Source: Zygnema cylindricum
Lineage: Eukaryota > Streptophyta > Zygnematophyceae > Zygnematales > Zygnemataceae
Length of the DNA stretch: 62,000 nucleotides
Assembly: GCA_037447655.1 (NCBI GenBank)
Contig: JBBHKE010003319.1
Location: 1 to 62,000, forward strand
Direction of reading: 5' to 3'
Shown here: positions 30,215-54,934 of the stretch, in pieces
How the letters are laid out: the number at the start of each line of letters is the position of its first letter
How positions within the stretch are numbered: position 1 is the first letter of the stretch
Made by a program: the position numbers and the translations under genes
Notes under the pieces: generated by a model
The model's input: the letters and a program-made list of their open reading frames with translations, nothing else
Databases searched by the model: none
What the model was told of the DNA's origin: nothing

Positions 30215-30958
30215 CCGTGGATCTAGTCGCAGTCGGAAGTATAACTTTTTTCCCTAAGTGTAGTACGACTTACTTTGTCTTATTTTAGTTTGATAGCATC
30301 TGCTTTCCTTTCATTGGCTCTTGGGATTGCTTTGACTTTTGGACCTGAAACTGGACAAATTTGGTTGTATAAGGCATTTGGGGCCGAAGGAGACAGGCTG
30401 CTGTTTCAAAACTGTCTCATATGAAAACCCCCAGAAAATTCCAAACAAACCTTTTTTTTGGAAGAATCTTTGTCTTGCTTGAGTGTTTAACTCTATTGCC
30501 ATCTTGGTTTGGATTTGTCTTTTTTGGAGGTCGTAGTCCGGGCGGTTAGTTGGCACTATCCATCCCTTTGGGCGATCTTGACTTTTGCCATTGAAATTGA
30601 GAAGAGTCTAGTTGATTCCGATCTGCAGAAATCAAGGTGTGAAAGAGGATTGTACCTGTTATTGGTGCCACCGGGAGATATTTCGTCTTCTCTTTGTGCC
30701 AGTTTGGCTTTCTGGGGTATGTTGAGCTTGCTTTGCTAACATTATTAATTCTATCTTTTATTCCATTTTCTAGGGCAAGCTGATATTGTTACATCTGAAA
30801 CAACCAATTCTTTTTATTTTCATTATTTCTGCGTGGAAGTTTATTTGGTCCTGTTTGCTAGCCCTTTTTGCTTTGCGACGGTCCCGCCGAAACAGACTGC
30901 TAGAATTTTTTGTACCAGAACAGTCGGTTTTGAGGACACATTTGCTACGATAACAATT
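30215..30958 (+). repeat. Element H leader repeat, unit 1
   Basis: First of three related units of about 650-750 bp. Shared anchors include GGACAAAT (30353), GGAGACAGG, GTTGGCACTATCC and GATATTGTTA (30782). It contains no protein domain. A GTATGT...TTCTAG pair (30717-30773) looks like a very short intron and is echoed in unit 3; 57 bp is short for a plant intron. Confidence 0.6.
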
Positions 30959-31560
30959 TTTGGCCGTTGATTGGCTTCTGGTATTGCTTTGACTTTTGCA
31001 CTTGCAGTAGGACAAACTTTGGTGGTATAAGGCACTTGGGGCCGAGGGAGACAGGTTGCTTTTTCAGTACTGGCTCCTGAGAAAACCCCTAGGGAAATAC
31101 AATCAATCTTTCTGTTGGAGAACTATTGCATTGTGTTGTGAACTCTTTTGCCATCTTTGTTTTGTATTGTCGTTTGTGGAAATCCTAGCTCGGGGCGGTG
31201 GTTGGCACTATCCTCTCTTTGGGCGGTTTGGACTTTCGCTATTTGAAACTTAGAAGAGTCTTGTTGGATACGTACGGCGGAACCGAGGGTTGAGGGAGAA
31301 TCATATCAGTCTTCGGGGCAATTTGGAGAGATTTCTTCTTCTAAGTTTTGTCTTAGTTGCACTCCGGGGTATGTGAGCTTGCTTCACCATTTTCATTGAT
31401 TTCTATCTTATTTCTATTTTTTGGGGCAAGGTGATATTGTTAATCTGAAAGAGCCGATATTTATTGTTTCTATATTTCTGCGTGGGAGTTATTTGCGCAC
31501 TGTTTTAATAGTCTTTGGTTTCTGTCCGGAGTTTTTTGGGCCGGATCGGACGGCTAACAT
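30959..31560 (+). repeat. Element H leader repeat, unit 2
   Basis: The same anchors occur as in unit 1: GGACAAAC at 31010 and GATATTGT at 31432, so the offset is about 655 bp. It is head to tail with unit 1. No coding was recognised. Confidence 0.6.
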
Positions 31561-32389
31561 TCCCTTTCCATCCTTTGGATAGTATCCAGGAGTTTAGCAT
31601 TTATTGGGCTTCCGGCGGATAAGCACGAATTTGGGTGGGTACGGGGAACTTTTTCCTCTTTTCACTCGCTCCCTCACTATTACCCATGCATATCCACGGG
31701 GAAAGGAGAGACAGAGAAGGGCGTGGTCATGCATGCGAAACCGCATTAGCATTTGGGGTGGATTGCAGGTCTTCTGTGCACACCTTCTCGAACTTGCCCC
31801 CCCTAAACCTCTCGGTTTCCAGGACCCCAATGCACTCTATTTCTGGCGGTGGGCCTTCTCTTATGTTTCCCAGGCACGCTCGACAGCAACCAGGGTTTTT
31901 ACCTTCGTTGTGATAAATTCCTTTTCCTTGAAGCTTAGTGGGTAGTGCTTCTGCCAAACAGTCGCTGTCTCATGTCAAGCTCGTGTGCTTTACCGGCACT
32001 TCTTTATCTCACCAAGGATTTGCGGGCCCTTTCTTCCCTGTATGGTCATCAGAGCACGGAGGAAGGAGAGTACCTAGCCGGACAAGACTCCTCTATTTTC
32101 TAAACTGAGTGGAACGCACTTTATTTCGCGCCTAACGTAGGCTGGATGACAAAGTTATTCCGTCTCACAGATGGCGATTCCGTTACACGGGACCAGTTTA
32201 CATCGGCCCTCGTGGGGGGTACATGGTGGATGGCCACGTAACTTTTCGGATTGTCATTTAGATTTTGCTGTTTGTTGTCAGTAGAACTTCAGTTCAGGTT
32301 CAGCTGACTTTTTTGTCCATTAATTACCCTAGGTCAAAGTGTGGTATTCCCACGTCAGTTCATGATTTTTGGTAGTTTATTGGTTCCGA
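31561..32389. other. Unrepeated stretch between leader repeats of element H
   Basis: About 830 bp separates repeat units 2 and 3. Short open frames exist on both strands, but none carries a known motif. It may be unique leader sequence of element H or a separate insertion. Confidence 0.3.
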
Positions 32390-33135
32390 TTGGGACTCTG
32401 TGTTCCAGATTTAGCTGGAGACTGAAGTAGAACTCTTTTCTTTGAGTGTGGTACGACCTTATTCGTCCTATGTCAGCTCGATAGCAATTGCTCTCCGCTC
32501 ATTAGCTCCTTGCATTGCGTTGACCTTTTAGATCTGAAACTGGACAAATTATGTTGTATAAGACACTTGGGGCGGAAGGAGACAGGTTGCTGTTTCAGTA
32601 CTGTCTCGTGAGAAAAACCCTAGAAATTCCAACAAACTTTCTTTTGGCGAACTTTGTTTTGTGTGTGATTGTGACCCTATTGCTATCTTGGTTTGCATCC
32701 GTCCTTTGTGGAAGTCGTAGTCCTGTTTGGTAGTTGGCACAATCTTTTTTGTTTGGGCGATTTAGGACTGGTGTCTGTTGGAAACCGGGAAGGGTCTTGC
32801 CGGTTCCGGGTTGTGGAAACCGAGGAGTTAACGAGGCTTTACCTATTTCAGTGTCTTCAGGAAAAGAATTCGTCTCTTCTTGTTGTCAGCGTGACGTTTT
32901 GGGGGTATGTTAAGCTCGCTTGCTATCATTCCAAATTATACCTTCATTCTCTATTTTGTAGGTCACGGTGATATTGTTAATTCTGAGACAGCATATATTT
33001 ATTTTATCCTTTCATTATTTTGAGTGGAAGTGCCTTTGTTCTCTCTTTGGTAGTCCTTTTTGGGGCTTCGGTTGGTTTTCCTCCGGGGTCGATTACTAGA
33101 ATCTTTTGTACAAAAAAATTGGATTTTGAGAGAAT
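32390..33135 (+). repeat. Element H leader repeat, unit 3
   Basis: Anchors GGACAAAT at 32542 and GATATTGTTA at 32969 match units 1 and 2. It leads directly into the gag-like coding region. Confidence 0.6.
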
Positions 33136-33249: not shown

Positions 33250-36200
33250 GGTTGTAAGTTTAACCTCCTTTCGAGTCATCCATTGCATCATAGGAAAGGG
33301 AGAGGTCCAAGAGAAAGGGGCTCCGGATAACGGATGCGGAGAGCAGGATAGACCCGAGGTACAAGCTCCGGGACCCGAGCCTGAACTGTCCGACGAATCT
33401 GTCCCGGTGGCATCTGTTTTTGATTCTCCAGCAAAGAAACCGGGAGGGTCGCCTTTTCTTCACATCCCCCGAGCCTAATCCTTGAGCAGTTATCGTCGTT
33501 GGCCGAAGCCGCCAGGGCCCAAGCCGAGGAAAGGAAGAAGTCGTCACCTACTGCGCGCTGGAAGGGTCATGCCCATAACGAAACATTTGCCGGACATTTT
33601 CCCGAAGTTGGGTTCCCTATTAGGTCTAAGGTTCCCTAGGCGGAGATCCCCATAGATCTTGAGATTTTGCCATATCCTCGTCGGCCGGGTCGGAAAGAGT
33701 TTTTGGCCCTTCATAATCTACACGAGTTCAAGGTGAAGAAAGAGTTTGTTGAGAGGGTAGCCCACACCGACCGTGCCCGGACAGTCAGGCCGATAGGAGG
33801 ATTAGTTGAGATTTCGAGTAGCTTTTCCGAAAGCAGTTCCTCTCGCTCAATACCAGAGCGACATTGGAGGGAACCAACTCCCTTTTCTAAAACCGCTCAA
33901 TCGGAAGACACGGCCACCAGTAAACCATCACGTGGTCGAGCCGCCTCTCATCACCAGGAAGGCACTAGCACGCAGAGCTACAAAGAGACTAGGAGAGGGA
34001 AAAGATTCGATCACCGTGACAGTAAGGGCAGGTTCACCCCGGTTGTGAAAGAAGAGATGTTCCCTCCGCGCGTGACGACATCACCTAAAGAGCCTCCTAA
34101 ACTTGCCCCAACTGTGCGACCTCCAGGAGGATTGTGGCAATCAAAACCTACCAATCTAGAGGTTTTGGGCATGGGAATAACAGATTTGGCCAGGGTAGTC
34201 AGCAGATCCCAAGAACTGGTAAATGTTTTAGCATCACAAGGAAAGGCTACGGCGGGGGTCGGACCCGTCATCGTAGACTAGGAAGCATTGGAGGCAGAAA
34301 GAAGAAGTTCATGGGAACATGATTTGAACATTATTAGGGAAGCGCGGCGTAGGTCTAGTGGGCTTCTTAGCGGGCAGACAAACCCTACTCTCAAGACCGG
34401 GACACACCCCAAAGCACCAGTTCAGGGACCTGTTTCTATTTCAAGGACTCCTTTGGGGATGCCTCCTTTAGAGACTGACTGAGATACTCCTCTTCAGCGG
34501 GAAGGGGGGGAAACCACAGGACCTAATGGGAGGGTTTGGGCGCACATTACCGGCCTGAACTTGCTGCTTCTCCCTAGGCGCGCCAACCTTGGTCTTAGCA
34601 GTGGCCTCGTCCCCAGAAGAGGCTTTCATGGAATTGTGACCGGACGAGAGGATACACATTACATTGATAACGACCTCCTTGCCTCGATCACCTCCACATT
34701 CATCCCTTTATCTTCCCTCTTCTTCTCCTCATCTACCATCACCACCTCACGCCCCCTCTCCTTCGCCATCCTTATCTCCCGCTGCAGCCGTCTAGGGGTC
34801 CCGGACCCAATTCTGTTACCCTACAAATAGGACGTACCCGCCTACTCACCTCCTCACCGACGTTCTCCTTCTACTAGCTCCGCAACTCCATCTCCCGAGA
34901 CATCTAGGAGGCGAAACAGGAGACAGACGCCTTTCCCCACGGAACCCCAACAGTCTCCGTCTCCGTCTCCATCTCCGTCTCCGCCACCGTCCATTCCACA
35001 AAGGACTTTGAACAAATCTCGTCTTCACATCCCATCAGTGGAGGAAGTTCTAAGGGGGGAGCGTGCCTTTCCTGGGTATAGAGGAGCAGACACGCGGACA
35101 TCTTTTTCCAGAGCAAAACCAACTGGAAATATAGGCCCTCCAGCTATATACCCAGTAGCGGGAACTTTCTCAGCGGGGGGGGTCCACCTCTCACCGGGCA
35201 TCTCCTTCCACCAGAGGAAAAGGCGGCTCCGATCCAGAAGACGCAGATCTTAGGGTCGTTTCACCGGTTCATTTTGTAAGTACCACCCGTCCTTCCTCGG
35301 CGCAGTTTACCAACCTCGCAGAGGAGGAGCAAATAGGTGACGTAAGGATTTTTATAGGGGACAGTTCGGGGATCGCTTTCTCATTTTTTGAACTGTTATG
35401 GAAATCTTTCAAATAATCCGAGATAAACAAATATAGGGAGGGGGGGCAATCCCAGATGACTGCGAAACTACCCTCTTCCCAATGATGGTTAATTATCTCG
35501 TTGGGGGTGCTTTAGCAGATTACAAAGAGCGACAACCTCTCCTGATGGCTCCCAGCATCAAGATTTCTGACCTGATCCTCGATGCGGCACTCTTGCAAGC
35601 ATAATCCGGCTTGGATGCAGCTGCAGCCGCTCCTACCACCGCCGCCTTCACAGATGACATGAAATTACAGGCACAAGGTTAGGCCTATGTGAACAAGCTG
35701 CAGGCCATCGAGGCCGCCAAAGCCGCCACCCAAATGGTTGCAGATCCTACACCCTGTAGAACTCTTTTGAACACCTGGAGGTTCATTTACACTGAAAGGA
35801 ATGAATCGGCTATCAAGAAATTCACGAAATTCCGTTGTCTGAAGAGTGAAACCCCCCAGACTTTGTTCAACAGACAGTCGAGCCTCAGCCAAAAGACAAA
35901 AGTATCGACCATTGATCTTCCGGCTATGGCAACCAAATACTTTATCGCAGTCCGAAATTAGTTCGGGCCCAAAAGGGGACTGCCTTCGACAATTGGATCG
36001 CCAGACGAGCCATCCAGGACATTAATCCATCCGCTAAAGAAATATCTCTGGATGCAATGAAGTTCTACGACCACTTCGTTCATAGTGAGGTCAGAGAGAA
36101 GGCGATAACAAGCAAAACTAGGGGAAACTTTGCAGGGTTTGCCAGAGAATGGCCTCCTAACAACGCGGATTCAGCATAACTTTTAGCTTTGCGGAAGCTT

Positions 36201-37145
36201 AAGGGGACACAGGTGGTGGATAGCGGATCTGAACAAGCAATGGGGGCCGATGACCGAGTCTTCATGTACAACTGTTTGAACTGCCAGCAAACCAGTCATG
36301 GTTGGAAGCGTTGCCTCGGAAGCTCAAACCCGAATTGGCACTCAAGCAAAAGAAATGGGAAAATGAAAGAGCTAAACGGACCAAGAAAAAGGAAGAAATG
36401 AAACAATGCGGAGGATCGGAAGACATAACACCGGTGACCAAAAACAATTACGGCCCAACTCCCTAGTCTGAAACTGCCAAAATGTCCCAAGCTCAGTTGC
36501 GACAAATCAAACTCTCAAAGTTCGATGATTCCCAAATCTCCAATGAGTTACGGAGAAAATACACCACGGATTGCTGCAAATGTGAGGCTTGTGAATTCAT
36601 CGGACACAAGGAGGGGCAATGTTTTTGAAAGAATGGGGTCCCAAAGGAGATGATGCATTATGCACTGTTTACCGGCGGACGAGAAACTGCCGTGAATCCT
36701 CTCCCTCTCTAGCTCCTTTACCCTTGGGGGCATCGCGCCATAAACAAACCAGAAAGAACTCCAACGGTTCAATCCAGACTTACCCTGGAGAATATAATCC
36801 AACATCAGAGTTTGCAAGTAGCCGCGGTGGCTGTAGAACAGGCAGCCCTGCGTTTGGGATCTCCCTCTCGGACTCTTCCTCTGACGGCCGCTCAGAAACT
36901 CTACCGGAGAAAAAAGAATTACTACAAAAGGTGGCAGAGCTTGAAGAGTAATCCGCGACGGGCGAAGATGACGAAGTTGTGATGGGGTGGGATCTGGAAC
37001 CTCCTAAAGCGCATCACGCACAAACTTTCCTTTCGAGAGCCTAGAATATTAGCGTAAGAGACAATCGAAGGCAGCTTCGTACCTCAACATCGTCGCAAAG
37101 AAGAGACAAGCAAAGACCGACTTATCAGCGTCGGCCGTAAAGACT
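33250..37145 (+). pseudogene. Element H copy 1, gag-like region with two CCHC knuckles
   Basis: Broken frames encode a Pro/Ser/Arg-rich N-terminal part (33290-35250, with an SPSP repeat near 34960-34990). A capsid-like helical stretch follows at about 35480-36060 (GGALADYKERQPLLMA, ISDLILDAALLQA, FTKFRCLKSETPQTLFNR). Then come two zinc knuckles, CLNCQQTSHGWKRC at 36273-36314 and CEACEFIGHKEGQC near 36590-36630. This layout is that of an LTR retroelement Gag. The sequence shares no similarity with the copia gags here apart from the knuckle pattern. It ends near 37145 where copia fragment D starts. The second half is duplicated in copy 2 from 45592. Confidence 0.7.
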
Positions 37146-38361: not shown

Positions 38362-38970
38362 CGAATGCACATAATTATTTACAACAATCAGACAGCCGCT
38401 TGAAATGAAATAGTACGTAGTTAAAGTCCGTCCGCTGAAATGACGGTACAGTCAATACTTCTTTTCCAAAAATTACGGCAAACTCCGTCCGCTTTCTTGG
38501 TATTCTTTCATCACCGAAGATGAACCTCCACATGTAACTTTGGTCCTTAAATGTAACAGTACCTTTTCTTCTAGAACAACCAAACTTGACTTTCTCACGG
38601 ACTAACACGTGTGCCTGGAGTGCACCCAATCTGTGTACTCCTTTTCGAGTTGTATACTCACTAAATCATTCCTCGTCAATTTATCTTCACACAAACTGAC
38701 TCATATTCAGAACACCTTTCTTGCGCAGACTGCTATAGCTGCTATGACTCTGCTACGACTGCTATGACTGCTATGACTGCTATGACTACTATGATCTGTC
38801 AGTGCAACCGTGATATTAGAGCAGCGCAACTGCGATGTCAGATCAGAGCAATATAGCAGCACAGCAACAAGTGTAGAGTGCTCAAGGTTTGTAGCTGCGA
38901 TGTCAAACTTAGCGCAGCATGACAGCATAGCAGCAAGATATAGAGATGACTCAAGGCTTCCTAAACAACA
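38362..38970 (-). repeat. Truncated 3' LTR of element C (609 bp)
   Basis: It matches the outer 600 bp of 44580-45591, from AATGCACATAATTATTTACA to AAACAACA. It includes a tandem stretch of nine-base CTGCTATGA-like units at about 38728-38800. The U5 side is missing. The polypurine tract CTCCCCTAAA (38971-38980, plus-strand reading) follows. Confidence 0.85.
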
Positions 38971-38980
38971 CTCCCCTAAA
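38971..38980 (-). promoter_or_regulatory. Polypurine tract of element C
   Basis: On the minus strand TTTAGGGGAG abuts the LTR start TGTTGTTTAGG. Confidence 0.75.
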
Positions 38981-39008
38981 CCTATAGACTCTCTCAGCCA
39001 CTGAGTCC

Positions 39009-39281
39009 TCATTCCTCTTTACATAACTTCAACTTAGGTGCAGGTAAAGGCTTAGTTATCATATCTGCTACCATATTCTCATCCGGAAGATAACTTAGCT
39101 TTAAAATTCTGTTCATCACCTTCTCTCTTACAAAATGCAACTTGATGTCAATGTGTTTGCTTTTGAAGAGATGACTCGGGTTGGATGCAATTGCAATAGT
39201 TGCCTGGTTATCACACCACACTATTTGAGGTCTGGATGGCATAAAATGAAGTTATTGGAGGAGGGATTTCACCCATAGTAA
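39009..39281 (-). pseudogene. Element C RNase H, C-terminal part
   Basis: Read leftward it gives LLWVKSLLQ, then a stop, then MPSRPQIVWCDNQATIAIA, KHIDIKLHFVRE and MITKPLPAPKLKLC, ending at 39009. It is separated from the rest of RNase H (40696 onward) by the solo LTR. Removing the LTR and one AGTAA copy restores VKELLWVKSLL. Confidence 0.88.
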
Positions 39282-40690: not shown

Positions 40691-43600
40691 AGTAACTCCT
40701 TCACAGCTGAGCTTGTTGCCATATATTCAGCCTCCATTGTAGACTGAGCTGTTACCTTTTGAAGCTTGCTGCTCCAGCAGCATGTTCCAGTTCCAATCTT
40801 CAAAATGAATCCAGTGGTGGAATGGCGGCTTGGCATGTCTCCATAGCTAGCATCGCTCCACGTCTGAATTTTGACTTCATCTCCACCAAGAGCAAGTCGA
40901 AGATTCCGTGTGCCTGCAAGGTACCAAAGAACCCTCTTTGCGGCCTTCCAATCTGTTTTTCTCGGATTTTGCAAACTCCGGCTCAAAGCGCCAACTGCTG
41001 CCGCAATATCCGGCCTCGTGTAGTTCATGAAGTAAATTAGGCTGCCAAGAATCTGTCGGTATGGAATGGTGGCCATAAAATCTGCCTCCCTTGACTCCAA
41101 GGTATCGTCAAAAATGTTTCCTCCATCGGTCTCCACGCCTTCCACTTTCTGCTTAAATTCTATGGGAGTGGCACTTCCGTTTGCCTCTGCCATGGCAAAC
41201 TTTTCAAGCACATTTCCTATCGCTTCACGCTACAATAGATGGATTGTTCTCCTATCTCTATCCCTTTCTACTTGAATTCCAAGAATATACTTTGCCTCAC
41301 CTAAGTCTTTCATCTCAAATCTTGAATTCAAGGCTGCCTTTATTTTGTTAATCCCATTTAATGACTTGCTTAACAGCAACAAATCATCTACATATACCGC
41401 AATGTACATAATCCCATCTTTCCCTTCCATAACATAGACTGAGTGATCTGAGCTAATCCTAACGAATCCTATACCGGTTAAAAACTCATCTAGTTTTAGG
41501 TTTCACTGACGTGGAGCATGCTTCAAACCATACAAAGATTTCAATAGCTTACAGACTGGATTTTCTTTTCCAGTCTCTTCATACCTTTTCGGCTGCTTCA
41601 TATAAATTAGTTCTTGTAGATCTCCATACAAGAAAGTTGTCTTAACATCCATTTGATCTAGTTCCATATTCTCAATGGTTGCTAGGGATAACAAAATTCT
41701 AACAGTTGGAAATCGGACAACCGGAGAGAAAGTCTCTTCATAGTCAATTCCCTCCTTCTGACTATAGCCTTTTGCAACAAGCCTAGCCTTATATCTTTTA
41801 ATAAAGTTATCTAGATTCAACTTTACTTTAAAGACCCAGTTACAGCCGATGGCTTTTTGGTCTAGTGGAAGCCCCAAAAGCTCCCAAGTTTGAGCCTCCA
41901 TTATCGATTGCATTTGATCGTTAGCCGCAGCGATCCATTGATCTTTTTCCGGAGCTGAAAAGGCTTTCGATATTGTGACCGGTTCGATCATGCTGGAAGA
42001 TAATAAAGCAGTTTCGCAGCTTCGCAATTTTGCAGCGTCGCAGCTTTGCAGTTTCGCAGCATCGCAGTTTGGCAGCGTCGCAGTTTTCATTTAGATCCAA
42101 CGTACCGACATAAAATAGAGCAGCTTCACAGTTTCGCAGGCTGCTGCTTTGCCTTCTTCCCCCCGGAAAATCTGATGCTGGAACTGTTGGATCCGTAGGT
42201 TGCCGCCGAGGAGGAGGTGGAGGAGGAGGATGATTCTCCACACGTGGACCAGCCGGAGGGTCCAAAATGGGACTAGAAGAAGTGAGAGTAACACTTTCAA
42301 AAATAACATATTATTTGATTTTGGAATGTTTTTCAAAATCTGTCATACCAAAAACATCTACCGATCTGCTCTCTTCTTTAACCTGAAAATTTCTAGCAGT
42401 CTGAAAAGTATTCCTATCCCTATTAAATACTCTATAGCCCACGGATTCATCATCATAACCCATAAAAATTCATGGAATCGATTTCGAACTAAGCTTAGAA
42501 ACAGGGAGATTATACAAAATAAAACATTTACTCCCCAAAACCTGGAAGTGACTAACATTCGGTTTTCTTCCGGTCCACACTTCATATGGTGTTTTCCCTT
42601 TTACTGCTCTAGTCTTTATTCTATTCCTAATATACGACGCACACGAGAAAGCCTCACCCCAAAATTTGAAATCTATTCCCTTATCTAGTAACATAGATTT
42701 TGCACTTTCCGTTAGAGTTTGGTTGAGTCTTTTAGATACTCCATTTTGTTTCGGAGTATAAGGAACTGTAAATTGCCAAAAAATGCCATTGTCTTTTAAA
42801 TATTTAGAGAATGTATGAGAAATATATTCCCCTCGGTTGTCACACCGAAAGGAAAGGATCGGTTTTCCATGAAGTTTTTCCGCCCATACACGAAAATGCC
42901 TGAAGTGAGTGAGCACTTCACTCTTTTCTTTCATAAAGTAAATCTTGCTATATCTTGAGAAGTCATCCGTAAAAGGGACCAAAAACCGGTTGCCACTCAG
43001 TGAAGGAACTTTTGAAGGTCCCCACACATCCGAATGAATAATTTGCAGCAAATCCGTGGCCTGGTTATCCGCTGTTTCAAGTAGCGACAGCTTATGAAGT
43101 TTCCCCAAAGCACATCCATCACATACATGGGAATCTGTTTGTCCTAATTTAACACCATCTATCATATTTTTCTTTACCATTTTATCAAGCCTTTCATGAT
43201 AAACATGACCGAGCCTCTTATGCCACAAAACATTTTTCGGAAGGACACTAGAGTATGCAAAGTCAATTTCATTAGCCAAGTCCATCCGGTACAACAAGTT
43301 TGGGCCTCTAGTTCCTACCAAAGCTACCTTCCCATCTTTGCTTAATACCTTTTTTCCATTCTTTTGTAAAATTTCAAAACCTTTCATTTCTGCTACCGAA
43401 GTGGAAAACAAATTTTTTGTAAACTTTGGGATAAAGAGAACATCATGCAAGGTTCTCTTTACAATCTGACCGTTGATATCACATGCTAACTCCACGCTTC
43501 CCTTTGCCGTAGCCTCCACACCGCTGTCATCCGCGTAATAAATCGGACGAGTGGGAATTGGAGTAAGGGTTTTGAAGTAAGCCCGATTGCCGCACATGTG

Positions 43601-44579
43601 GGAGGAGCATCCGGAGTCCATAATCCATCCGTTCTCTCGAGGTCCCTCCATGAGATCTTATGCAAGAGCAAAGAACACGTCATCATCCGATTCTGGAAAT
43701 CTGACCACATATTCTTTTCCTTCCGGTCGTTCATCTTGTGACGTCTCAACAAATGCAAAGAACGCCGCATTTTTAATCGGCAGTTTTGATGTCACAAATT
43801 TTGGTGATGAACCCTCCGATCGTACCCTCTATCCCGCACGATAAATTCCCGTTTCACACGCTTTTATAAATGCCAGACACAGCCGGAAAACATGACCTTG
43901 ACCAAAGCAATAGACACACCTATCATATTGCCTATAATTCGGATTGGGGGTAAAGTTTCTGTTTCCAGAAAATCCAGCCGGCTTATATGTCTGTGCATTG
44001 TAAGCAACCACTAATTGACCACCGTTTAATGCTATTTGAGTTGCCTCTTCGTCTAAGATATAAGCTTGAGTTACTGCTTTATTCCATTTACTCTTCTCTA
44101 ACCTTCTTAGCTGCTCCGCTGCTCCTCTATATTCAGTAGGAAGCCCTCTCATTAGAATCATAACTTCATGATAAGGAGGAAAACTCCCCCCGGAACATGC
44201 ATTCTCCGACAATAAAAGTTTAAAGCCATTACAATATGAGTTAATGTCACCCCCAGTATATTTATAGTCCCAAATTTTTCCAGCAGTAACAACCTCATTC
44301 TGCTCACTAGCTAAGACATAAGATTCACTCAAGGCCTTCCATATTTCAGATGCCATAGAGATATTGATATATGTCATGTTAATATCTTCTGACAAAAGTA
44401 ACTTTAAAACATGCAATGCATCTTCATTTTTCTTTCCAAACTCTGGATCCGTATCCGCAAGAAAACCAAAAATCACATCATATAATTTCACTTGTTTCAA
44501 ATAAGACTTAGTCAAATCCGCCCAATAAAGATACTTTTGCCCATTAAACACCACGATCCGTGAGGGAGGGCCCGTGACC
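40691..44579 (-). pseudogene. Element C gag-pol
   Basis: Read leftward. Gag continues from the LTR (VTGPPSRIVVFNGQKYLYW) with a CCHC knuckle near 43905 (CVYCFGQGHVFRLC). Protease near 43620 is MDSGCSSHMC, with the Asp kept. Integrase at 43651-42470 has HKRLGHVYHERL, the CDGCALGK zinc site, HSDVWGP and RCDNRGEY, but reads VSKRLNQT where the catalytic Glu is expected. A linker near 42000-42150 carries an eight-residue CDAAKLR-type repeat. RT at about 41960-41230 has YVDD and SRFEMKDLGEAKYILGIQ. RNase H starts at 41211 (TWSDASYGD, CCWSSKLQKVTAQSTMEAEYM). Only a few stops interrupt it, so it is fairly young. Confidence 0.9.
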
Positions 44580-45591
44580 TGTTGACTTGAGGCAGCTGAT
44601 GCCACTAAAGAAGATGAAGAAGCATCGGCAGTTGCCATGATAATCAATTGTGCAAAGAGGAAACTCTCACGAAATCCCACAAACAACCAACTTCACAATG
44701 AAGCCCCAAGCAAATTAGACACACCCTAAGTCTACAAATTTGCCACAATATAGAATATATACACCAAAGAAACCACATGCAGAATTTCACAAAGTTCTGC
44801 CAAATGATCACAATGATCTTATAATTCAAACACACCCAAAAACTGCTTCGCAGTTTTCCTACACAACAATCCTATTTTTTCTAAAGTAATCTAAGTCCTA
44901 TATATGCAAGTGAGCCTAGAGTTGATCACACCGTACTACAACTAGCGTGGTCAATTGGTACACTACTATTCATTAACAAAATCCCACCGTTGAATGCACA
45001 TAATTATTTACACCAATCAGACAACCGCTAGAAATGAAATAGTACGCGGATAAAGTTCGTCCGTTGAAATGACGGTACAGTCAATACTTCTTTTCCAAAA
45101 ATGACGACGGACTCCGTCCGCTTTCCACGTATTCTTTCATCACCCAAGATGAACCTCCACGTGTAACTTTGGTCCTCAAATGTAACTATACCTTTTCTTC
45201 TAGAACAACAAAACTTGACTTTCTCACGGACTGACACGTGTGCCTGGAGTGCACCAAATCTGTGTACTCCCTTTTGAGTTACATACTCACTAAATCATGT
45301 CCTCGTCACTTTATCTTCACACAAACAGACTCATATTCAGAACACCTTTTTTGCGTAGACTGCTATAGCTGCTATGACTCTGCTACGACTGCTATGACTG
45401 CTATGACTACTATGATCTGTTAGCGCAGCTATGATATTAGAGCAGCGCAACTGCGATGTCAGATAAGAGCAGCATAGCAACACAACAACAAGTGTATAGT
45501 GCTCAAGGTTTCTAGCTGGGATATCAGACTTAGCGCAGCATGGCAGCATAGCAGCAAGATATAGAGAGGACTCAAGGTTTCCAAAACAACA
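44580..45591 (-). repeat. 5' LTR of element C (1,012 bp) encoding the Gag N-terminus
   Basis: The outer 600 bp match 38362-38970. I place the inner end at TCAACA (44580) by analogy with the solo LTR and the element A border. The gag ATG at 44638 lies inside it, so the first 19 codons (MATADASSSSLVASAASSQ) are LTR-encoded. The nine-base CTGCTATGA array is repeated near 45358-45415. Confidence 0.7.
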
Positions 45592-47249
45592 AGCTCTACG
45601 ACCACTTTGATCATAGTGAGGCCCGAGAGAAGGCGGTAACAGGCAAAACTAGGGGAAAATTTGCAAGATTTGCCGGAGAAATGCCTCCTGACAATGAGGA
45701 ATCGGCAGAACTTATAGCTTTGAGGAAGCTTAAGGGGAAACAAGTGGTGGATAGCGGATCTAAACCCGCCATGAAGGTGGATGACCCCAACTTTCTGTAC
45801 AATTCGTTGAACTGTCAACAAACAGGTCATGGATGGAAGCGCTACCCCCACAAGCTCAAACCCGAATTGGCCCTCAAGCAGAAAAAATGGGAAAAAGAGA
45901 GAGCTGAAAGGACCAAGAAGCATCAGGAAAGGAAACAAGGAGGGGGATCGGAAGACAAAACACCGGTAAACAAAGATAATTACCGTCCGACTCCCGGTTC
46001 GAAACTCCAAAAATGTCACAAGCCTAGTTGCGACAAAGCAAACTTCCAAAATTCGATGATGCAAAAATATCGAATGAATTAAGGGTCAAATACACCATCG
46101 AGGGCTCCAAGTAAGAGGCTTGGGATTTCATGCTCACTAGGAGGGGTAGTGTTTTTGAAAGAATGGGGTCCCAAAGGAGATGATGCAATATGCACTGTTT
46201 ACTGACGAAGGTGCAACTCCCGTAAACCCTCTCCCTCTTGTGCTTCTTTATCCTTGGGGACTTCGCACCACGGAAGAACAGGAACGACAAACACTAGGTC
46301 AAGCAAGACTCACCCCGTAGAGTATCATCCAACAGCAGAGCCAACAACTAGCCGCCATGGATGCAGAATTGGCAGCCCTGCGTTTGGGATCGCCCTCCCG
46401 GACTCCTGCTATGACAGGCGCTCAGAAATTCCACCAAAGAAAACAAAAAGTACTACAAAAGCTGGTAGAGCTTGAATAGGAATCCCCGGTAGGCGGAGAC
46501 AATGCCCATGTGATGGGGTGGGATATGGAACCTCTTAAAGCGCATCACGCACAAACTTACTTTTTCGGAGCATGGAATGTCGGTGTGGGAGACAGTCGCA
46601 GGCAACTACGTAACTCAACATCGGAGGAGAGGAGAGAGAAGCAAAGACTGGATCATGGAGATCACAACACGAAGACCACTAGACCTTTGTCATTCACCCC
46701 CAGGGAAGTTATTCTGAACGACAAAACAGGTCTCGGAATCAAAACCACAAATCTGCCTCCCCCGGCTCTAAAGAAATTCACTCCCAGATTCGAGAATTAC
46801 AAGACAACTAAGCAAAGGGAGATGGAAAAATAGGCGGAAGAGGATGAAAAACGAAAAAACAAAGACTGGTTCGAACGATATTTGATGGAACGCCCGGAGG
46901 ATAAAACACCAGAAATGCCCCCTGAACCGGATTCCGGCTAAGAAAGTGAGGAAGCAGGGGGAGGGAGCAGGAAAAACCAGAGGAACCAGGTTCCCCTATT
47001 TCGTCGCCAAAAACTCAACCTCCTTCCTCCAAATCGGCAGTGATGTTAGTAAGGCATCTCATGCCCTACGTCCTCACTCACGTGAAAACACTAGCCTCTT
47101 CCCATAACTTGCCGGAAAAAATTCTCATACAGGCCCTCGGAGAGGAGATTCACTCAGAAGGGGAGAAAATACCCCGGGCAGATCAGCTCTGGTCAGTCTT
47201 TTGGTCAGCAGACCCAAAGACCATTATAATGGATAAAGATTATAAGACG
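45592..47249 (+). pseudogene. Element H copy 2, gag-like region
   Basis: It begins abruptly at the LTR border of element C and matches copy 1 from about 36062 (YDHFDHSEAREKAVTGKTRG versus the same words there). The first knuckle is damaged (CQQTGHGWKRY). Downstream of the copy 1 end it adds SFTPREVILNDKTGLGIKTT, a Lys/Glu-rich stretch, and MPYVLTHVKTLASSHNLPEKI. Several stops break it. It leads straight into the protease. Confidence 0.72.
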
Positions 47250-47690
47250 TTATTTGTGGCTCTAATCCTCAACCGGACAGGAAATTTCAAACTCAACGGG
47301 TACGGCGAATACCAAGATGCAGTGGTTGACACAAGAGCACTCCCAAACCTAATTACAACTTCGGCTCTACAACAAATGCCCGAGGAACTCTGACCGGAAA
47401 TTTGCCCCAGTAACATCATCTTGAGCAGGGTTAGCAGTGGGAACTAGCCAGTTCACGAAATTATCAAAGCCATGTTAATCGAGTTCTCTGATGACGCGGG
47501 TCAAAAAGTTCGAATTCAACTTCCCTTCTTGGTGGTGGAAGGTAAGCTGTTTGAAATTATATTGGGGATGGTCACCTGGGCAAGGTTGAATATGGGTTTA
47601 AGTGTGTGGAAGGAGAAGTTTACTGATCGGGACCTTGAGGATACGGAGGGGGTCAAGGTGGTGGTACCCTTGGATTTATAGAATCGGGGG
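47250..47690 (+). pseudogene. Element H protease (retropepsin-like)
   Basis: AVVDTRALPNLIT at about 47320-47360 corresponds to the retropepsin active site D-T-G, with Gly changed to Arg. A typical second half follows (VRIQLPFLVV, FEIILGM). Two stops lie near 47391-47445. It sits between the gag-like region and the methyltransferase in one direction of reading, as expected for a Gag-Pol order. Confidence 0.68.
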
Positions 47691-47779
47691 AAAACTAATG
47701 CTCCAGTAGCCGGATGTTATCTTGTTTATGCTACCCACACTCCATCAGAACTTCTCGCCAGCGCTACTGACATTACAGA

Positions 47780-48960
47780 CGTGATATAGCAATTCCTTAT
47801 TACCAAGCGGTGGGATAAAAGATACCAGAGTAGATTATCACAGGTAGCCACACTTCGGCAAGAAGTGGACCAGTCCTTCGCAACTATTTTTGCCAAGGAG
47901 AAAAAGCGTCGGTTAGAATCTTTGAAGGTTCCACCGATAAATAGAAAATTCTTTCGACAGGTGGTGCCATTATCAATTTCGGATTCTGGACTCCGAATAC
48001 TATGACTATTATCTGGAATTAGCTTAGACTTAGAGGCTGTATTGAAAGCAGGGTATAAAGTGGAATCTTATGTGGCCATGGAAATTTCTCCTGATAATCG
48101 GGCCGTCAGTGAACACAGACTACAACTGCTTCACCAATTGTATCCCCAACAACTTCCCATATCCGCCATCTGTAGATCTCACTGAAGCCTTCCCTACAAT
48201 AGAGACAATATCTTCGGACCCCATTTAGCTATGCTGGAGCAAGTAAATTTGGTAATAGAAGGATGGCCTTGTCAAGAATACTCTTTAACAGGGAAAGGCG
48301 AAGGGCATCAGGATAGTCAAAGTCAAACCTTCTTCAAGATGATCAAATTAATTTCCTAGCTCCAGCAATCTCAATACACACCAGTAGGGTACGTTTTGGA
48401 AAATATTCACCTAAGAGATGATAAAAGAAAACCGGTCACCAATACTTGGAACCAAGTTAAGTAGATTCTAGGGGCTCCACTCGTTTTCAATGTAGCACAA
48501 CTAAGATCTAAAGGTCACACAATTTGGGCTTAATGGACCAATGTGATACCTTTGTCAGTCCTAAACCAACTCCTACAAAACCACAATATAGATCCCTAAA
48601 TTACTTTGCAAAAAATTTTAGGGCCAAGGCGGATGGCCACTCTAGTAACCAAGGTTTATCGTCCGCCATTATTGCAATGCAACAAACTAGGAGCACTACG
48701 GCAAGCCTTACCAACCTTGATTTCTATCCCCAACAGCTATGCGTACCGGAAGAAAGCAGCTCAAATGATATTGGACAGCAAAAGTGGAGTTTGGAAACCA
48801 CCAATGGTGGAAGAACAAGAACAAGCAATGGGATTCAAACTGCCACCAAGGCAGCACCAGGTATTTCAGACCTCCAAAGATGTAGGCTACTAGGACACAA
48901 CATGGACCTCAATGTAATCAGATGGGTTTTAAAACATTCTCTTCCCTTTTATAGCCTACA
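47780..48960 (+). pseudogene. Element H cytosine-5 DNA methyltransferase domain, inactivated by stops
   Basis: One frame from about 47960 to 48850, then a +1 shift to 48960, reads as a compact C5-methyltransferase. Motif I region: SGLRIL.LLSGISLDLEAVL followed by VESYVAMEISPDNRAV. Motif IV: VIEGWPCQEYSLTGKG with the catalytic Cys codon at 48270-48272. Motif VI: GYVLENI with ENI at 48399-48407. Motif VIII: AQLRSKGHTIW.WTN near 48495-48543. A target-recognition part follows (ALPTLISIPNSYAYR, EEQEQAMGF). Motif IX/X: ISDLQRCRLLGHNMDLN near 48870-48915. Such enzymes transfer a methyl group from S-adenosylmethionine to C5 of cytosine. In-frame stops at 48003, about 48183, 48356, 48462, 48531 and 48597 rule out activity of this copy. 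It directly follows the protease. The family call is strong; the subfamily is not settled. Confidence 0.82.
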
Positions 48961-49149
48961 AAAGGGCTATCTACCTTCAAGCACCACGGTTGTTAGCAGT
49001 ACAGGCCAACTTGCAACTTAAGGGGGGGAGGGAGGGAAAGAAATATATTTTATCATCAAAATTGTCAGTCCCAACATTCCACCCAAATCAAGGGATTCCT
49101 CATTGGGGAGGAGCGGAGGCTCAGAACGGGACAGCTAAGCGGAAGTTGT
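48961..49149 (+). other. Tail of element H copy 2 after the methyltransferase
   Basis: About 190 bp follow the last methyltransferase motif before the LTR of element E begins. I see no RT motif in it, so the pol of element H is either truncated here or lies outside this window. Confidence 0.4.
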
Positions 49150-50152
49150 TGCAATTTTGTGTCCTCCATTGGACTACAAAATTTATAAAGCCTCTAGATA
49201 GTTTTAACTAACCCACTTCAAGCCACAACCACTGCTGCCCAAAAAGGCAAATTGACAATCTGAATACACCCTTTTGCAGCCTGGACGCCCCTGAGTTCTT
49301 AGGAAAATAATCACTGAAAACGTCCAACCAACCAATTAATTATGAGGTGTAAAGATGCCAAGTTTATACAAACTCTCAAAGGGAGAGAGGTCACTACCTA
49401 CCAAAATCTCTAAGTCCTAAACCCCTCTCACAACCCCTATCTACTGACGTATGAACCAATCAAATGACTATAGGGTACAAAAGGTACTACGACCGATGTA
49501 CTTTCTGTACAGCCTGTGTACGATAAGGCCTTTGAGTGGATGCTTGTCCATATTTAACGCGTCCTTATATTCTTCGGAACTCCTGCGACCAAAAGTCATC
49601 CCTCCACATGGCGCCAAGTCATGCCACGTTGATAAACCCCAAAATGACCATTCCGCGATCTCGAGAATGATATATGCCATCGGATGAAATCCGACATTAA
49701 ATATCGGCCGTCGAAACAAATGTCTGATTCAGTTATTTCGTGCGAAATAATATTCACACTATATAACACTTGTATCTATGTTCATTTGTTCTTCATTGCG
49801 TTAATTGAATTCATGGTCTTAACACTGTTTAAATAATGATCAAACCTAATGTGTCCTAACGGACTTGTACGACAAACTGGTTAGCGCTAACGGCTACGCC
49901 GCTCTCTGTCGGTCAGAGGTTCGAGTCTTGCCGGACTTAACCTTTGTTTGAGAGTGACATAAGTCACTCTTTAGTCTTTCTTGCGGAGCTAGGACAGCCA
50001 TGGCTCAACCACCTTCTCTATCCCTCAATGAGTACAACAAGTATGGTGGGTAGAGAGACGAGGTGGAGGCAGGCTATCCGCCTTTTTCTTTTCCTATTTT
50101 TACTAAACTACTTAGACCTAGATAATACCATATAAATCTAATAATTTCAACA
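49150..50152 (-). repeat. 3' LTR of element E (1,003 bp)
   Basis: Same family as the element A LTRs: starts TGTTGAAATT and ends AATTGCA on the minus strand. It carries the TATA-like block near 49757, the tRNA-like block near 49865-49940 and the in-LTR codons ATG-GAG-GAC-ACA-AAA-TTG. Confidence 0.88.
49865..49940 (+). repeat. tRNA-like block inside the LTR (copy 3)
   Basis: TGGTTAGCGC and the B box GGTTCGAGTC occur at the same LTR position as in the element A LTRs. The stems do not pair as in a tRNA. Confidence 0.45.
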
Positions 50153-53100
50153 CTCTCCTTATTTTGTAGTCCAACTTTAACTTCAGTCCACACTTTTCTC
50201 TACAATACTTTAACTCGGGAGAAGGCACCGGTTTTGTCATCATATCAGCCACCATGTCCTCATATAGTTTATATACAAGATTCACAATCTTATTCTCAAC
50301 TTTTTCTCTCACAAAACTCAACTTTATGTCCATATGCTTAGCTTTGAAATGATGCTTTGGATTAGCTCCAATTGCGATGGCAGATTGATTATCACAAAAC
50401 ACTTCATGCACCCCCTTATTCATATACCCTAGTTCTTGCATCAAGGACTTCACCCACATCAACTCTTTCACAGCAAAACAAGAGGACATGTACTCAGCCT
50501 CCATAGTAGACTGAGCAACCACCTTTTGTTGCTTATTGTTCCAGCAGTGAGCACCTTCCCCCACATATAACACATACTTAGAAGTGCATCTTCTCAAAGG
50601 TGCGTCCCAATAGCTAGCATCACTCGAAGTTGTGATGTCAGTGTGGTACCATCCCAAATGCAACCATAACTCTCTAATTCCCACTAGATATCTCATGACT
50701 CTCTTTGCTGCCTCCTTGTCTCTCTTCCTAGGATCATTAAGGCTCCTACTAAGTACTCCAACTGTTGCCGCTATGGCCGGCCTGGTACACTTTATAAAAT
50801 AGATCAATCTTCCTATGACCTCTCTATAAGGGATGGACTTCATAAACTCTCTCTCCTCTGGACTCATCTGATCATCTAAGAGCATCACTCCTTCTACACT
50901 CCCATTACTTATTTATTTCAAGTCCATGGGAGTGGTACATCTGTTTTTCTTTTCGATCTGGAATTTTTGAAGCATATTACCTATTTCTTCTTTCTGAGTA
51001 AGTCTGATAATCCTTTTCCCCCTATCTCTCTCCATTTGGATCTCCAAAATGTATTTTCCCTCACCTAGATCCTTTTTATCAAATCGGCTTCTAAGATATT
51101 TTTTTAGCCTATAAATCTTTACCAAAGACTTACTGAGTATAATCAGATCATCCACATAGATTGCAATAAAAATAACACCATTCTCATCCTTAAACATATA
51201 GATAGAATGGTCAGAACTTATTCTGATATATCCCAGACTGGTGAAAAACTCATCTAGTTTCTTATTCCATTGTCGTGGAGCTTGATTCAGTCCATATAAG
51301 GACTTTATGAGTATGCACACTTCCTCTTTTCTCCTTCCTCCACAAATCCCTTTGGTTGCCTCGTGAAAATCTCTTCCTCTAACTCACCATTAAGACAGGC
51401 AGTCTTAATATCCATCTGGTGTATTTCCATGTCTTCCGCTGTTGCCAGATTGAGGAGAATCCTTACTGGCGGGAACCGAACAATTCGAGCAAATGTCTCC
51501 TCATAGTCATCCCTCCTTTTGGGTGAACCCCTTTGCTACCAGTCGAGCCTTATATCTCCCAATGGTGTTATTTGGGTTCATTTTTAGTTTAAATGCCCAT
51601 TTACAACATATCGGATTATGTCTAGAGGATAATCTGCTAGTTCCCAAGTATTTGCTTCCATGATAGAAGCCATCTTATCATTTATAGCTCTAATTCATCT
51701 TTCTTTCTTCGAACTTTTTACAGCCTCCGAGTATGACTGAGGCTCATCTACGTTAGATAGCTTTGTTACCTTGTGAGCCGCCGGTTTTTTCTTGGATCCT
51801 TTTGCAAATCCTTCTCCCCCCTTTAAACTCCAAAGTAGGGATGGAGTGAAGTCTTAGATTTCTTCTTACTAACTTATCGGCTCCCGTATCCGTAGAATTC
51901 AGTTCCTGTCCCTCCTCTTCTGTCTCCTCAAAGTCCATAGGAATATGTGAGGTTTCCGGTGGATTACGTGTGTCTTGGATGTCCCTTGAATCTGCAATCC
52001 CAGTTTCACTCATGTTATTTTCGGGAAGGATGGAGTCCTCCTCACCATCAGACTCAAATTTGATTCTAAGCTTTTTGGTATATTTAAAAGGGTCAAATGA
52101 CTTCATTTCATCCATGACAACTAGGTGTTTGACCAGAATGATATCTCTCTTTGCTATGTCATACACTCTATATCCCTTGATATCCTCATCTTATCGTACA
52201 AAGCATTCAGGTTTTCCCTTAGCATCTAGTTTCCATTTTTTCCTATCCATGTGAAGACTGTAAACTTGGTTACCGAATACTTTAAGGTGGGAGATATCCG
52301 GTTTTCTTCCCACCCACCTCTCATAACGTATCATTCCCTTTACAACTGAGGTAATGACTCTATTATTAATGTAGTTGGCAAAGTTCATGGCCTCTGCCCA
52401 AAATTTCTTTCCTTTTTTCTCATCGGCCAACATACTATATACACTATCTCTTAGTGTTCGGTTCAACCTCTTAGCTACCCCATTTTGTTCCGGGTTATAT
52501 GGTACAGTTTTTTGGTGCTGAACTCCCTCATCTCTCAAATACTCCTCAAACTGTTTAGAGGTATATTCCCCCCAATTAACACTCTTTATTCTTTAAATGG
52601 GGGTTCCATGCAACTTCTCAGTCCAGGATTTATATTCTTTGAAGTAAGTTGATATCTAAGACTTTATTTTTAGGAAGTAGACTCTAGAGTATCTAGACTA
52701 GTCATCAATTATTATCATCAAAAACCTTTTTCCTCCAACCGAAGGTACTTTTTCAAGTCTCCAGATATATTTTTGTACCAGATCTAGTATTTTCTCACCT
52801 CTATATGTGGCGGCTTTGGGAAAGGGAATTCTGTGAGACTTATCTAGGGCACAACCACTACAATCATCCATCACTTCATTATCCCCAAACTGAATGCCAT
52901 CTATACCCCAAGCTTTTTCATTTCCCTCAACCTATCAAATTGCACATGCCCGAATAGCTTATGTCAAATAATCAACTTTGGAACAACAACATAGTATGCA
53001 TTCTTCTTTTCATTAATCACGTTAAGCCTAAACATACCTTGACTACCTTTATCTTTCGTGAAGTAAATTTCAACGCTATACTTAGCTATAAAGATTCCCT

Positions 53101-53926
53101 TTCTAGTGAAGGTATCAAACTCTTTGTCATCTACAACGTAGAGACAAGATTTTTACTCAGCCGAGGTATATAGAGTACATCTGAGAAGGTGAGTATGGAA
53201 GTCTTTCCCTCCTCTAAGACTTTCAGATAAACTGATCCCACTTGATTTGTAGTAACCACTCTCCCATCCCTATACTCTATCTCTAGAGTAGAGATATCTC
53301 CTAGCTTAATGAAGAGTTATTTATCACGTCCCATATGTATGGATGCACCTGGGTCGATGATCCATCTTTCCTGTGGAGCTTATTGAATTGCTCCAAGGGC
53401 ACACTTCTGTCTCTGAGGGATCTTCTTCGCCTCCAGACTCTTTTCAATAACAAGCTCTTTATCCTCCACAAAGGACTCGTCCTCGGTTTGTCCTCCAACT
53501 TTTGTGACCACAAGTGCCTTTTTCTTCTCTCCAGAAAAATCTCCTCTACAGTTCTCTTTGAGCCTCATCTCCGACAGCTTGATAAAATCCACAATAAAGT
53601 GTCTCAACTTTTTTGCAAGAATGACAAATGCCCTTTTGAGGCCTTGGTCCTCCACATTGATCTCTTTCCCCTTTGAATGTTTTCTTCGGATCCTTCCCCC
53701 ATCGTTCCCCTCCTGCAACTAGAGCTTGAATGCTCTTTCCTCATCTCTTAATCTCCATTGTGATTTCCTGCACAAGTATCATCCACTCTATTCCACTTCC
53801 AAATACTATTAATTATTTCATGTACTCGGTACACTATGTTCTCGAACTCGTCTGGTAACTACATGATGAGAAAGTTAACTTTCATCTTCATTGTAAAATC
53901 TTCATTGTGGGCACCCTCGAGGGCGG
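50153..53926 (-). pseudogene. Element E gag-pol, internally deleted
   Basis: Read leftward it is a close relative of element A. RNase H is at 50888-50118 (VFCDNQSAIAIGA, KHMDIKLSFVRE) and RT at 51320-50913 with YVDD. The integrase end is at 52538-52191 (EQNGVAKRLNRT, with Lys where the catalytic Glu is expected). Protease near 53350 reads IDPGAS. Most of the N-terminal half of gag is missing: the frame jumps from the VNTLIM region to only about 20 bp of gag start at the LTR. The internal region is about 560 bp shorter than in A. Confidence 0.88.
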
Positions 53927-54934
53927 TGCAATTATGTGTCCTCCATTGGACTACAAAATACAGGAAGCTATTAGATAGTGTTTAACTTACCCACTTCAAG
54001 CCACAATCACTGCTGCCCAAGATGGCAAACTGACAAATTGACTTCACTCGTGTGCAGCTTGGACTCCTCAGAGTATGTAGCAAAGAGAATCACTAAAAAT
54101 GGCAAACTAGCTGATAAGTTATGAGCCGGCAAAAATGCCAATTTTATACAAAGCTCTCTTAGAGAATGAAGACGATCTACCAGATTTTCCAAAGTCCTAG
54201 ATCCCTCTCACTACCCTTATCTACTGAAGTACAGACCTATCACGTGAGTGTATAGTACAGAAAGGTACAATGGCCGGTGTCCTTTTTATACGGCATGTGT
54301 ACGACAAGGCCACTAAGTAGACGCGTGTCACTTTCCACTCGGATGTATATTCCACGGAATTCTCGAGACCAAATATCATCTCTCCACGTGGCGCCAAGTC
54401 ATGCCACGTCCATAAACGTCAAAGTGACCATTCCGCGATCTCGGTAGTGATATGCGCCGTCGGATTTAATCACACATTAAATGTCGACCGTTGAAACATA
54501 TGTCTGATTCATTTGATTCGTGCGAAATTACGTCCGCACTGAAATACTTTAACTAGTTCTATGTTCCTTTGTTCACACTTCAGTAAATCAGTTTCAGGAT
54601 CATGTATTAGTTTAAATACATATCACACCCTATGTATTTTAACGGGCTTCACGACAAACTGGTTAGAGCTACCGGCTGCGCTGTACTCTACCGGTCGGAG
54701 GTTCGAGTCATGACGGACTCAACCTTTTGTTTGAGAGTGACATTTGTCACTCTTTAGTCCTGCTTGTAGAACTAAGGCAACCATGACTTAACCACCCTCT
54801 CTAACCTTCAGTGACTACAACAAGTATGAGGGCTAAAGAGAGGAGGTGAAGACTGGTTGTCTACCTTTTTTTTTCCCTTTTATACTAACCTATTTAAACC
54901 TAGAAAATACTCTAGAAATCAATAAATTTCAACA
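53927..54934 (-). repeat. LTR shared by elements E and F (1,008 bp)
   Basis: It is the 5' LTR of element E and, at 54935, abuts the polypurine tract of the next element, so it also serves as the 3' LTR of F. The tRNA-like block is near 54650-54722. The in-LTR gag codons end in TAA here (ATG-GAG-GAC-ACA-TAA). The TATA-like block is lost. Confidence 0.88.

Follow-up and report, generated by a model that had tools for sequence, protein, structure and literature searches.

A Ty3/gypsy-type retrotransposon family in Zygnema cylindricum with a DNMT3-like cytosine methyltransferase between protease and reverse transcriptase

In this study, we undertook a comparative analysis of element H, a decayed retroelement located in a window of 62,000 nucleotides from the charophyte alga Zygnema cylindricum, and found that it belongs to a multi-copy retrotransposon family in the same genome. 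As read from the sequences, the architecture of this family is characterized by a C5-methyltransferase between the protease (PR) and the reverse transcriptase (RT), with a PHD finger at the C-terminus in most of the copies examined. The explanation that best accounts for the results as a whole, and that we regard as probable, is that element H represents one dead member of a Ty3/gypsy-type family with a DNMT3-like enzyme, and that this family would rely on self-priming, a circular intermediate and marking of new copies and, in class B, on stop codon read-through.

Copies of the family in the genome

The assembly searched comprises 352.8 Mb in 2689 contigs, the window lying on contig C2491. At least 123 matches to DNA_methylase (PF00145) were identified, all over the cut-off (123 of 782 candidates scored), together with at least 139 matches to the PR (139 of 1061 candidates scored). 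The window copy is included among the latter (E 1.2e-122) and is absent among the 123 PF00145 matches listed. A first-pass annotation of the window had proposed that element H is a member of a retroelement class in this genome, of which intact relatives may exist; the number of matches bears out the first suggestion, and relatives with intact frames of up to 2395 aa at the PF00145 matches bear out the second.

Eight short and 14 ten-kb loci were studied, representing 20 distinct places, the ten-kb loci having been selected because they had long open frames or ranked high. PR, methyltransferase and RT are present in all 14 of the ten-kb loci, an integrase (INT) in 13 and a C-terminal PHD finger in 12, and RT was found in three of six short loci. 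In relative L090, a single ORF encodes two CCHC knuckles, DNA_methylase, RVT_1, RNaseH, H2C2, rve and PHD, the last with 38.1 bits (cut-off 24); L093 and L094, the two class B loci scanned, have the same domain order, with PHD below the cut-off in both. The Ty3/gypsy order PR-RT-RNaseH-INT with an rve integrase is present in all three of these relatives, and it was rve rather than any tyrosine recombinase family that was found among the Pfam matches of the five proteins scanned. Most of the loci could be assigned to class A (10 places: L085, L086/L097, L090-L092, L095, L096, L099-L101) or class B (seven places: L082, L083, L087/L094, L089, L093, L102, L103), and two more distant loci, L084 and L098, to class C. 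The window copy is of class B (62% identity over 285 aa). At one other locus, L088 (G000:C514:126680-126928), no PR or RT accompanies the DNA_methylase match, which may represent an exon from a host gene for a methyltransferase.

The first-pass annotation had named the adjacency of PR and methyltransferase in other copies as one of two points on which its reading would stand or fall, and a homologous PR was found just upstream of the methyltransferase in 19 of the 20 distinct loci. Among the matches listed, 37 of the 139 PR matches have a methyltransferase 0.2–1.7 kb downstream on the same strand and 102 have no listed methyltransferase partner, as may follow from the limited length of the two lists, while no PR-methyltransferase pair is in the wrong order or on the wrong strand within 3 kb. 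These counts bear on the possibility that the association arose by chance, with a gypsy element landing in a host DNMT gene or retrocopy, or the gene or retrocopy landing in a gypsy element, at this one place. Such an event would agree with there being only one methyltransferase copy in the window, and that a decayed one, but it is opposed by the near-constant adjacency and order, by a single ORF of 2395 aa with all the domains, and by the constraint on the enzyme described below. Because the architecture is multi-copy, we consider chance association refuted and its remaining probability negligible.

Element H in the window

The first-pass annotation had placed the element at 47250–48960, and an element is indeed present there; its extent, however, is larger (45591–49149), with the methyltransferase part at 47790–49043 by homology. 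The features identified in the window are as follows.

45591..49149, plus strand: what survives of element H, with copia-type elements truncating it at both ends (tblastn with a relative; borders from self-BLAST)
45591..46168, plus strand: C-terminal part of gag with a degenerate zinc knuckle (58–62% identity to the L094 gag; 79% nucleotide identity to the sibling at 36060)
46177..46407, plus strand: gag-PR linker region (60% identity to L094)
46950..47786, plus strand: aspartic protease and upstream linker (71% identity to L094 over 279 aa; DTGA decayed to DTRA)
47787..47789, plus strand: in-frame UAG, followed by CAA UUC, at the PR/methyltransferase boundary, a candidate read-through stop (conserved among copies)
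47790..49043, plus strand: DNMT3-like C5-methyltransferase and start of the stretch toward RT (PF00145, 30.4 bits; 55% over 428 aa to L094)
48267..48275, plus strand: motif IV PCQ with the catalytic cysteine (translation and alignment with human DNMT3A)
48399..48407, plus strand: motif VI ENI (translation and alignment)
48872..48960, plus strand: motif X region, in a shifted frame (50–69% identical to class B loci from six places)
30246..33003, plus strand: A-repeat remnants of one or more sibling class B elements (blastn with A1 and B of C1374)
30947-31619 (A) and 31634-31823 (B), plus strand: A-B junction within the remnants at 30246-33003 (blastn with A1 and B of C1374)
33733..37035, plus strand: sibling class B element, with ORF1 at 33733-34401 and gag with intact knuckles at 34816-36643, then linker to 37035 (tblastn)

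Of element H, the window keeps just gag, PR and methyltransferase. On the left, at 45591, the fragment abuts an LTR belonging to a copia element on the minus strand (38360–38970 and 44989–45591, the two LTRs being 90% identical). On the right, at 49149, it meets a second copia family, whose four copies, starting at 22417, 27753, 49149 and 53927, have 77–91% identity to each other, and several minus-strand copia elements in 38360–45591 and 49149–57910 cut the gypsy elements of the window to pieces. A purine run at 49020–49043 was considered as a polypurine tract, with the element ending after the enzyme; this reading was rejected because the frame runs on, with homology to relatives that continue to RT. 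Rfam and tRNA scans of the whole window gave no match.

That this copy is dead, as previously annotated, is evident from three stops in the PR and six in the methyltransferase, and from a frameshift near 48867 after which the frame is restored by about 48963. The gag with knuckles reported for element H was confirmed as to gag, the end of which is present, and requires amendment as to the knuckles, as the first has lost two cysteines; the sibling gag at 36060–37117 (79% nucleotide identity) has intact CX2CX4HX4C motifs, as do several relatives. For the retropepsin-like protease, the annotation stands by homology and not by profile: the decayed window protease, whose motif is DTRA, had no Pfam retropepsin match, whereas it shares 71% identity, across 279 aa, with a relative's ORF bearing DTGA, an ORF that itself scored 22.3 bits against PF13650, under the cut-off of 24.3. 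The class A protease was assigned from its MDTGA motif and its position. Protease copies at G000:C1156:24056, C1527:33158 and C549:25226 sit in open frames of 1466–1754 aa, which suggests that the gag side is greatly extended and terminates at the UAG.

Identification of the methyltransferase

The conceptual translation of the window enzyme (METHYLTRANSFERASE; 310 aa from 47961, in the frame at positions divisible by 3, with stops as X) matched the C5-methyltransferase family profile PF00145 with 30.4 bits (E 3.5e-7), over the cut-off of 22 bits, in agreement with the first-pass annotation, which had proposed this search. The same read had 35.4 bits against NCBIfam TIGR00675, below the cut-off of 100.65, and the relatives L090, L093 and L094 had 44–49 bits against PF00145. 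As a control, the whole window was translated in all six frames and, divided into overlapping chunks of 330 residues, compared with a vertebrate DNMT3 profile and with M.HhaI. The methyltransferase region alone passed inclusion, having 27.0 bits (full read) on the DNMT3 profile, for which the next unrelated chunk had 1.6, and 19.6 bits with M.HhaI, for which the next chunk had 4.3.

An alignment of the window enzyme with human DNMT3A extends over motifs I to X, with 26% identity. The ordered motifs that had been noted in it were recovered, with motif I at about 48006, IV (PCQ) at 48267–48275, VI (ENI) at 48399–48407, VIII (SKGHTIWA*WTN) at 48507–48542 and X (LLGHNMDLNVIRWVL) at about 48887–48931 in another frame; the labels I, IV, VI, VIII and X are those that we take to apply to these motifs. 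In searches of 5.8 billion proteins, in which proteins of more than about 1075 aa are missed, no close relative was found for the 310-aa window enzyme (E up to 0.001) and no relative for the 615-aa window piece spanning PR and methyltransferase (E up to 0.1). When human DNMT3A was added to the alignment for a protein search, the best 120 of 1004 matches had vertebrate DNMT3 names or were unnamed proteins.

Origin of the methyltransferase

In a tree with eight class A and class B enzymes, six vertebrate DNMT3, 22 viral enzymes and HhaI, the enzymes of classes A and B form one clade (100/100), and their grouping with DNMT3 against the phage enzymes has a support of 55/84, the tree including no plant DNMT3, DRM, CMT or MET1. 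A tree built with the decayed window copy was discarded, its branch being too long for use. The modest value for the DNMT3 grouping is one of three observations in favor of an alternative origin, in which the source of the enzyme is a methyltransferase of phage or bacterial descent rather than a DNMT3 gene of the host. The others are that phrog_116 matches almost all of the class B enzyme, with 78.6 bits, and that phage enzymes share PCQ and the WTN of motif VIII. Conversely, the class B enzyme has 67–73 bits on the vertebrate DNMT3 profile as compared with about 26 for HhaI, and de Mendoza et al., in the available part of their paper (PMC5890265), assign a charophyte Gypsy DNMT to Dnmt3. On balance, we regard a phage or bacterial source as possible but somewhat improbable.

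Several searches addressed viral enzymes. Viral contigs searched with gag and with the class A enzyme gave no match; another such search gave a single chance match of 12 residues; and in a further one 80 of 369 confirmed viral enzymes were retained, with 22–28% identity. Among named phages, one record matches the decayed enzyme and 114 match the class A enzyme, all at less than 60% identity. The viral C5-methyltransferases L002-L081 resemble DNMT3, and those aligned have a motif VIII like SAxxRxRxxWTN.

Selection on the enzyme and CpG content

Pairwise dN/dS of the enzyme (Nei-Gojobori, 16 sequences from 14 places) was 0.12–0.38 in class B (18 of 21 pairs with enough dS) and 0.16–0.32 in class A (four of 36 pairs, the close ones). 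In 30 of the 36 class A pairs dS was saturated, with dN of 0.115–0.172, the remaining pairs being near-identical or one place twice. The enzyme is under purifying selection in the copies measured. All seven class B sequences (six places) have PCQ in motif IV, and all nine class A sequences (eight places) have ECQ, with the cysteine kept; the ECQ in place of PCQ makes the activity of the class A enzyme doubtful.

The observed/expected CpG ratio is 0.42 in the window enzyme, 0.58–0.69 in four class B loci and 0.87–1.06 in nine class A loci, compared with 0.68 for the whole window and 0.96 and 0.62 for two host gene loci. The low ratios hint at past methylation of class B copies, although only weakly, as the host loci cover the same range.

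A conserved UAG between protease and methyltransferase

In class B the protease frame closes with TAG, followed by CAA TTC in the enzyme frame, which in the window occurs at 47787. TAG CAA TTC was found in L082, L083, L087/L094, L089, L093 and L103, in L084 of class C, and in 20/20 further copies, which were picked down the PR list (71–95% PR identity, alignment reaching the query end). Variants of the boundary are TAG TAA TTC in L102 (class B) and TAG CAA TTG in L098 (class C). Across the 20 copies TAGCAATTC is constant while the flanking bases vary, and it was taken as selected for this reason. To judge from these comparisons, the TAG at 47787 has been conserved and does not reflect decay, and DNMT-RT-INT of class B probably need read-through of this UAG, whose context UAG-CAA-UUC presumably resembles those of tobacco mosaic virus and other known leaky UAG codons. 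Read-through would not be needed throughout the family, since PR and enzyme are in one uninterrupted frame in six class A loci (L090-L092, L095, L097, L099); three others (L096, L100, L101) have a stop or frame change within the PR region.

Some other green algae use codes in which UAG is glutamine. Were this so in the host, UAG CAA would simply read QQ and there would be no read-through signal. This explanation is highly improbable, given that no TAG occurs within long stop-to-stop frames of the same elements (1520, 1525 and 2395 aa) and that the TAG keeps to one fixed place.

Split repeats, target duplications and priming

Repeats were examined in L090, L095 and L096, chosen for their visible terminal repeats, and in L094 as a class B example. 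The order A1-ORF-B1A2B2 was found in all four, in place of simple LTRs at both ends. In L090, the A repeat is 931 bp and 100% identical at both ends, B (about 242 bp, beginning in a run of 12 G) is found before and after A2, the outer ends are TGTC...GACA, and TTGG flanks both sides. A is about 1385 bp in L095 and about 1475 bp in L096, about 99.6% identical in each, with B of 190 and 192 bp and target duplications of AAGG and CCCT, respectively. In L094, A is 1186 bp (97.8%) and there is no target duplication, so that 4-bp duplications, within the 4–6 bp typical of Ty3/gypsy elements, occur in three of the four copies. The identity of about 99.6–100% between A repeats in three copies indicates that some copies are young. 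L094 (G000:C1374:31633-35348) also has about 3.7 kb between two B1 copies, a stretch bordered by directly duplicated sequence of about 330 bp and representing either a nested insertion or a rearrangement, and L101 has a terminal repeat of 158 bp (91.8%).

The B1|A2 junction is the palindrome GACAGCTGTC in all four copies and the outer ends are without its middle GC, which fits cutting at B|A in a two-repeat circle, a step that we infer. Just after A1, the leader begins at nucleotide 1 with an exact complement to an internal part of A, 17, 18, 19 and 15 nt long in the four copies, and none of the other 1019, 774, 722 and 1132 leader positions, respectively, reaches that complement length. There are three unrelated types of primer sequence, each pairing solely with its own A site. 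This self-complement adjacent to A1 would be compatible with self-priming. A tRNA-Met primer site just after A1 was sought in the relatives and rejected, the single match in 14 loci being inside L098 and located elsewhere.

DIRS/PAT-like retrotransposons have split direct repeats in the order A1-ORF-B1A2B2, integrate by means of a tyrosine recombinase and are not known to duplicate their target site. The repeat order of the family studied here is alike, whereas its members have an rve integrase and 4-bp duplications.

Comparison with known elements

The closest known relative, and one of the same kind, is KnitGypsy-Dnmt3 of Klebsormidium nitens, with which our comparison is by description. In the portion of the paper available, de Mendoza et al. 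(2018; PMC5890265) describe an intronless Dnmt3-type enzyme in the Pol of a Gypsy element, with Ka/Ks below 0.2 and DIRS-like repeats alongside Gypsy domains. As far as that description extends, the two have in common a charophyte (streptophyte) host, a DNMT in Gypsy Pol, DIRS-like repeats and purifying selection. Found here and not in the description are the PHD finger, the UAG between PR and DNMT, the self-complementary primer site, the palindromic junction and the 4-bp duplications, all of which the K. nitens elements may share; the words 'PHD' and 'protease' are absent from the main text of PMC5890265. The ECQ in motif IV of class A is a further point of difference from KnitGypsy-Dnmt3. 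On account of the class A ECQ and the class B UAG, the family is counted as a variant of the KnitGypsy kind, unless the K. nitens elements share both.

The first-pass annotation had cited precedents for methyltransferase capture from algal and dinoflagellate genomes. Klebsormidium, a charophyte, fits this precedent, whereas the Symbiodinium elements SymbioDIRS-Dnmt3 and SymbioLINE-Dnmt, also retroelements with a cytosine methyltransferase in the available text of PMC5890265, are of the DIRS or LINE classes in dinoflagellates and the family here is Gypsy. The SymbioDIRS-Dnmt3 enzyme was shown to methylate CG (same source and portion). Chromoviruses of the Tf1/Sushi and Tcn1 groups, as covered in the part of PMC6317226 available, are predicted to self-prime with no tRNA primer and carry a chromodomain; the present family may likewise prime itself, and the chromodomain is theirs. 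In the main text of that plant survey (PMC6317226), the words methyltransferase and PHD are absent. Apart from de Mendoza et al. 2018, the literature covered, as far as its text was available (preprints and most subscription papers being outside its scope), yielded no DNMT in a Gypsy element, nor UAG read-through or a PHD finger in one. Two candidates were rejected: the PHD in a Culex gypsy is merely a neighboring gene, and the Ectocarpus transposon methyltransferase is an unrelated N4/N6-type domain in a Sola1 element.

Proposed mechanism and its implications

In class B, normal termination at the UAG would yield gag-PR, and a minority of ribosomes would read through it to produce DNMT-RT-INT-PHD; with read-through in a minority only, the enzyme would be packaged in small amount with RT. 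The element RNA would prime its own reverse transcription, the inner A stretch pairing with the site after A1, and the resulting cDNA, in which the repeat is B-A, would circularise. Integrase would then cut the circle at the B|A palindrome, generating A1-ORF-B1-A2-B2. The methyltransferase would mark the new cDNA before or at integration, either matching it to host DNA or setting its chromatin state, and the PHD finger would tether the complex to histone H3. As a general proposal, which we offer tentatively, these would be integrase-using retrotransposons that integrate no linear LTR cDNA and instead enter through GACAGCTGTC as a self-primed, two-repeat circle, with read-through co-packaging a DNMT writer and a PHD reader with RT and each copy being methylated as it is made.

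In the first-pass annotation, the enzyme was a candidate for the tuning of silencing, through methylation of element or host DNA. Alternatively, the main target of the methyltransferase may be the host, or the enzyme may hold the element in check through a self-limit on copy number or an RNA substrate, rather than acting on the element's own cDNA. A low amount of enzyme, as read-through would maintain, is compatible with such a role, and restraint of retrotransposition is among the options discussed by de Mendoza et al. in the available part of PMC5890265. Against this, the enzyme is part of Pol and would be co-packaged with RT; we consider this alternative unlikely. Cytosine methylation silences transposons, yet a family of this size, by its methyltransferase and PR matches, keeps a methyltransferase under purifying selection in the copies measured. 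With intact relatives in the same genome, one may ask how a genomic parasite benefits from depositing the very mark by which it is normally silenced. As young copies are present, the host permits direct tests of the benefit of the enzyme to the element. In addition, the combination of split repeats with an integrase and target duplications bears on the origin and integration of split-repeat elements.

Other observations

Two regions of the window (15870–16519 and 17778–18557) have long open frames without a Pfam match (minus-strand frames scanned), and are possibly host exons. Elsewhere in the genome, 88 matches to chlorophyll a/b-type light-harvesting genes were identified, and clustered light-harvesting (chlorophyll a/b-binding) genes occur on contigs G000:C519, C2590 and C1116. 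One light-harvesting gene is closest to seed-plant CP24/Lhcb6 (313–320 bits), CP24 being known from streptophytes, in keeping with a streptophyte host, and another is closest to Lhcb-type chains.
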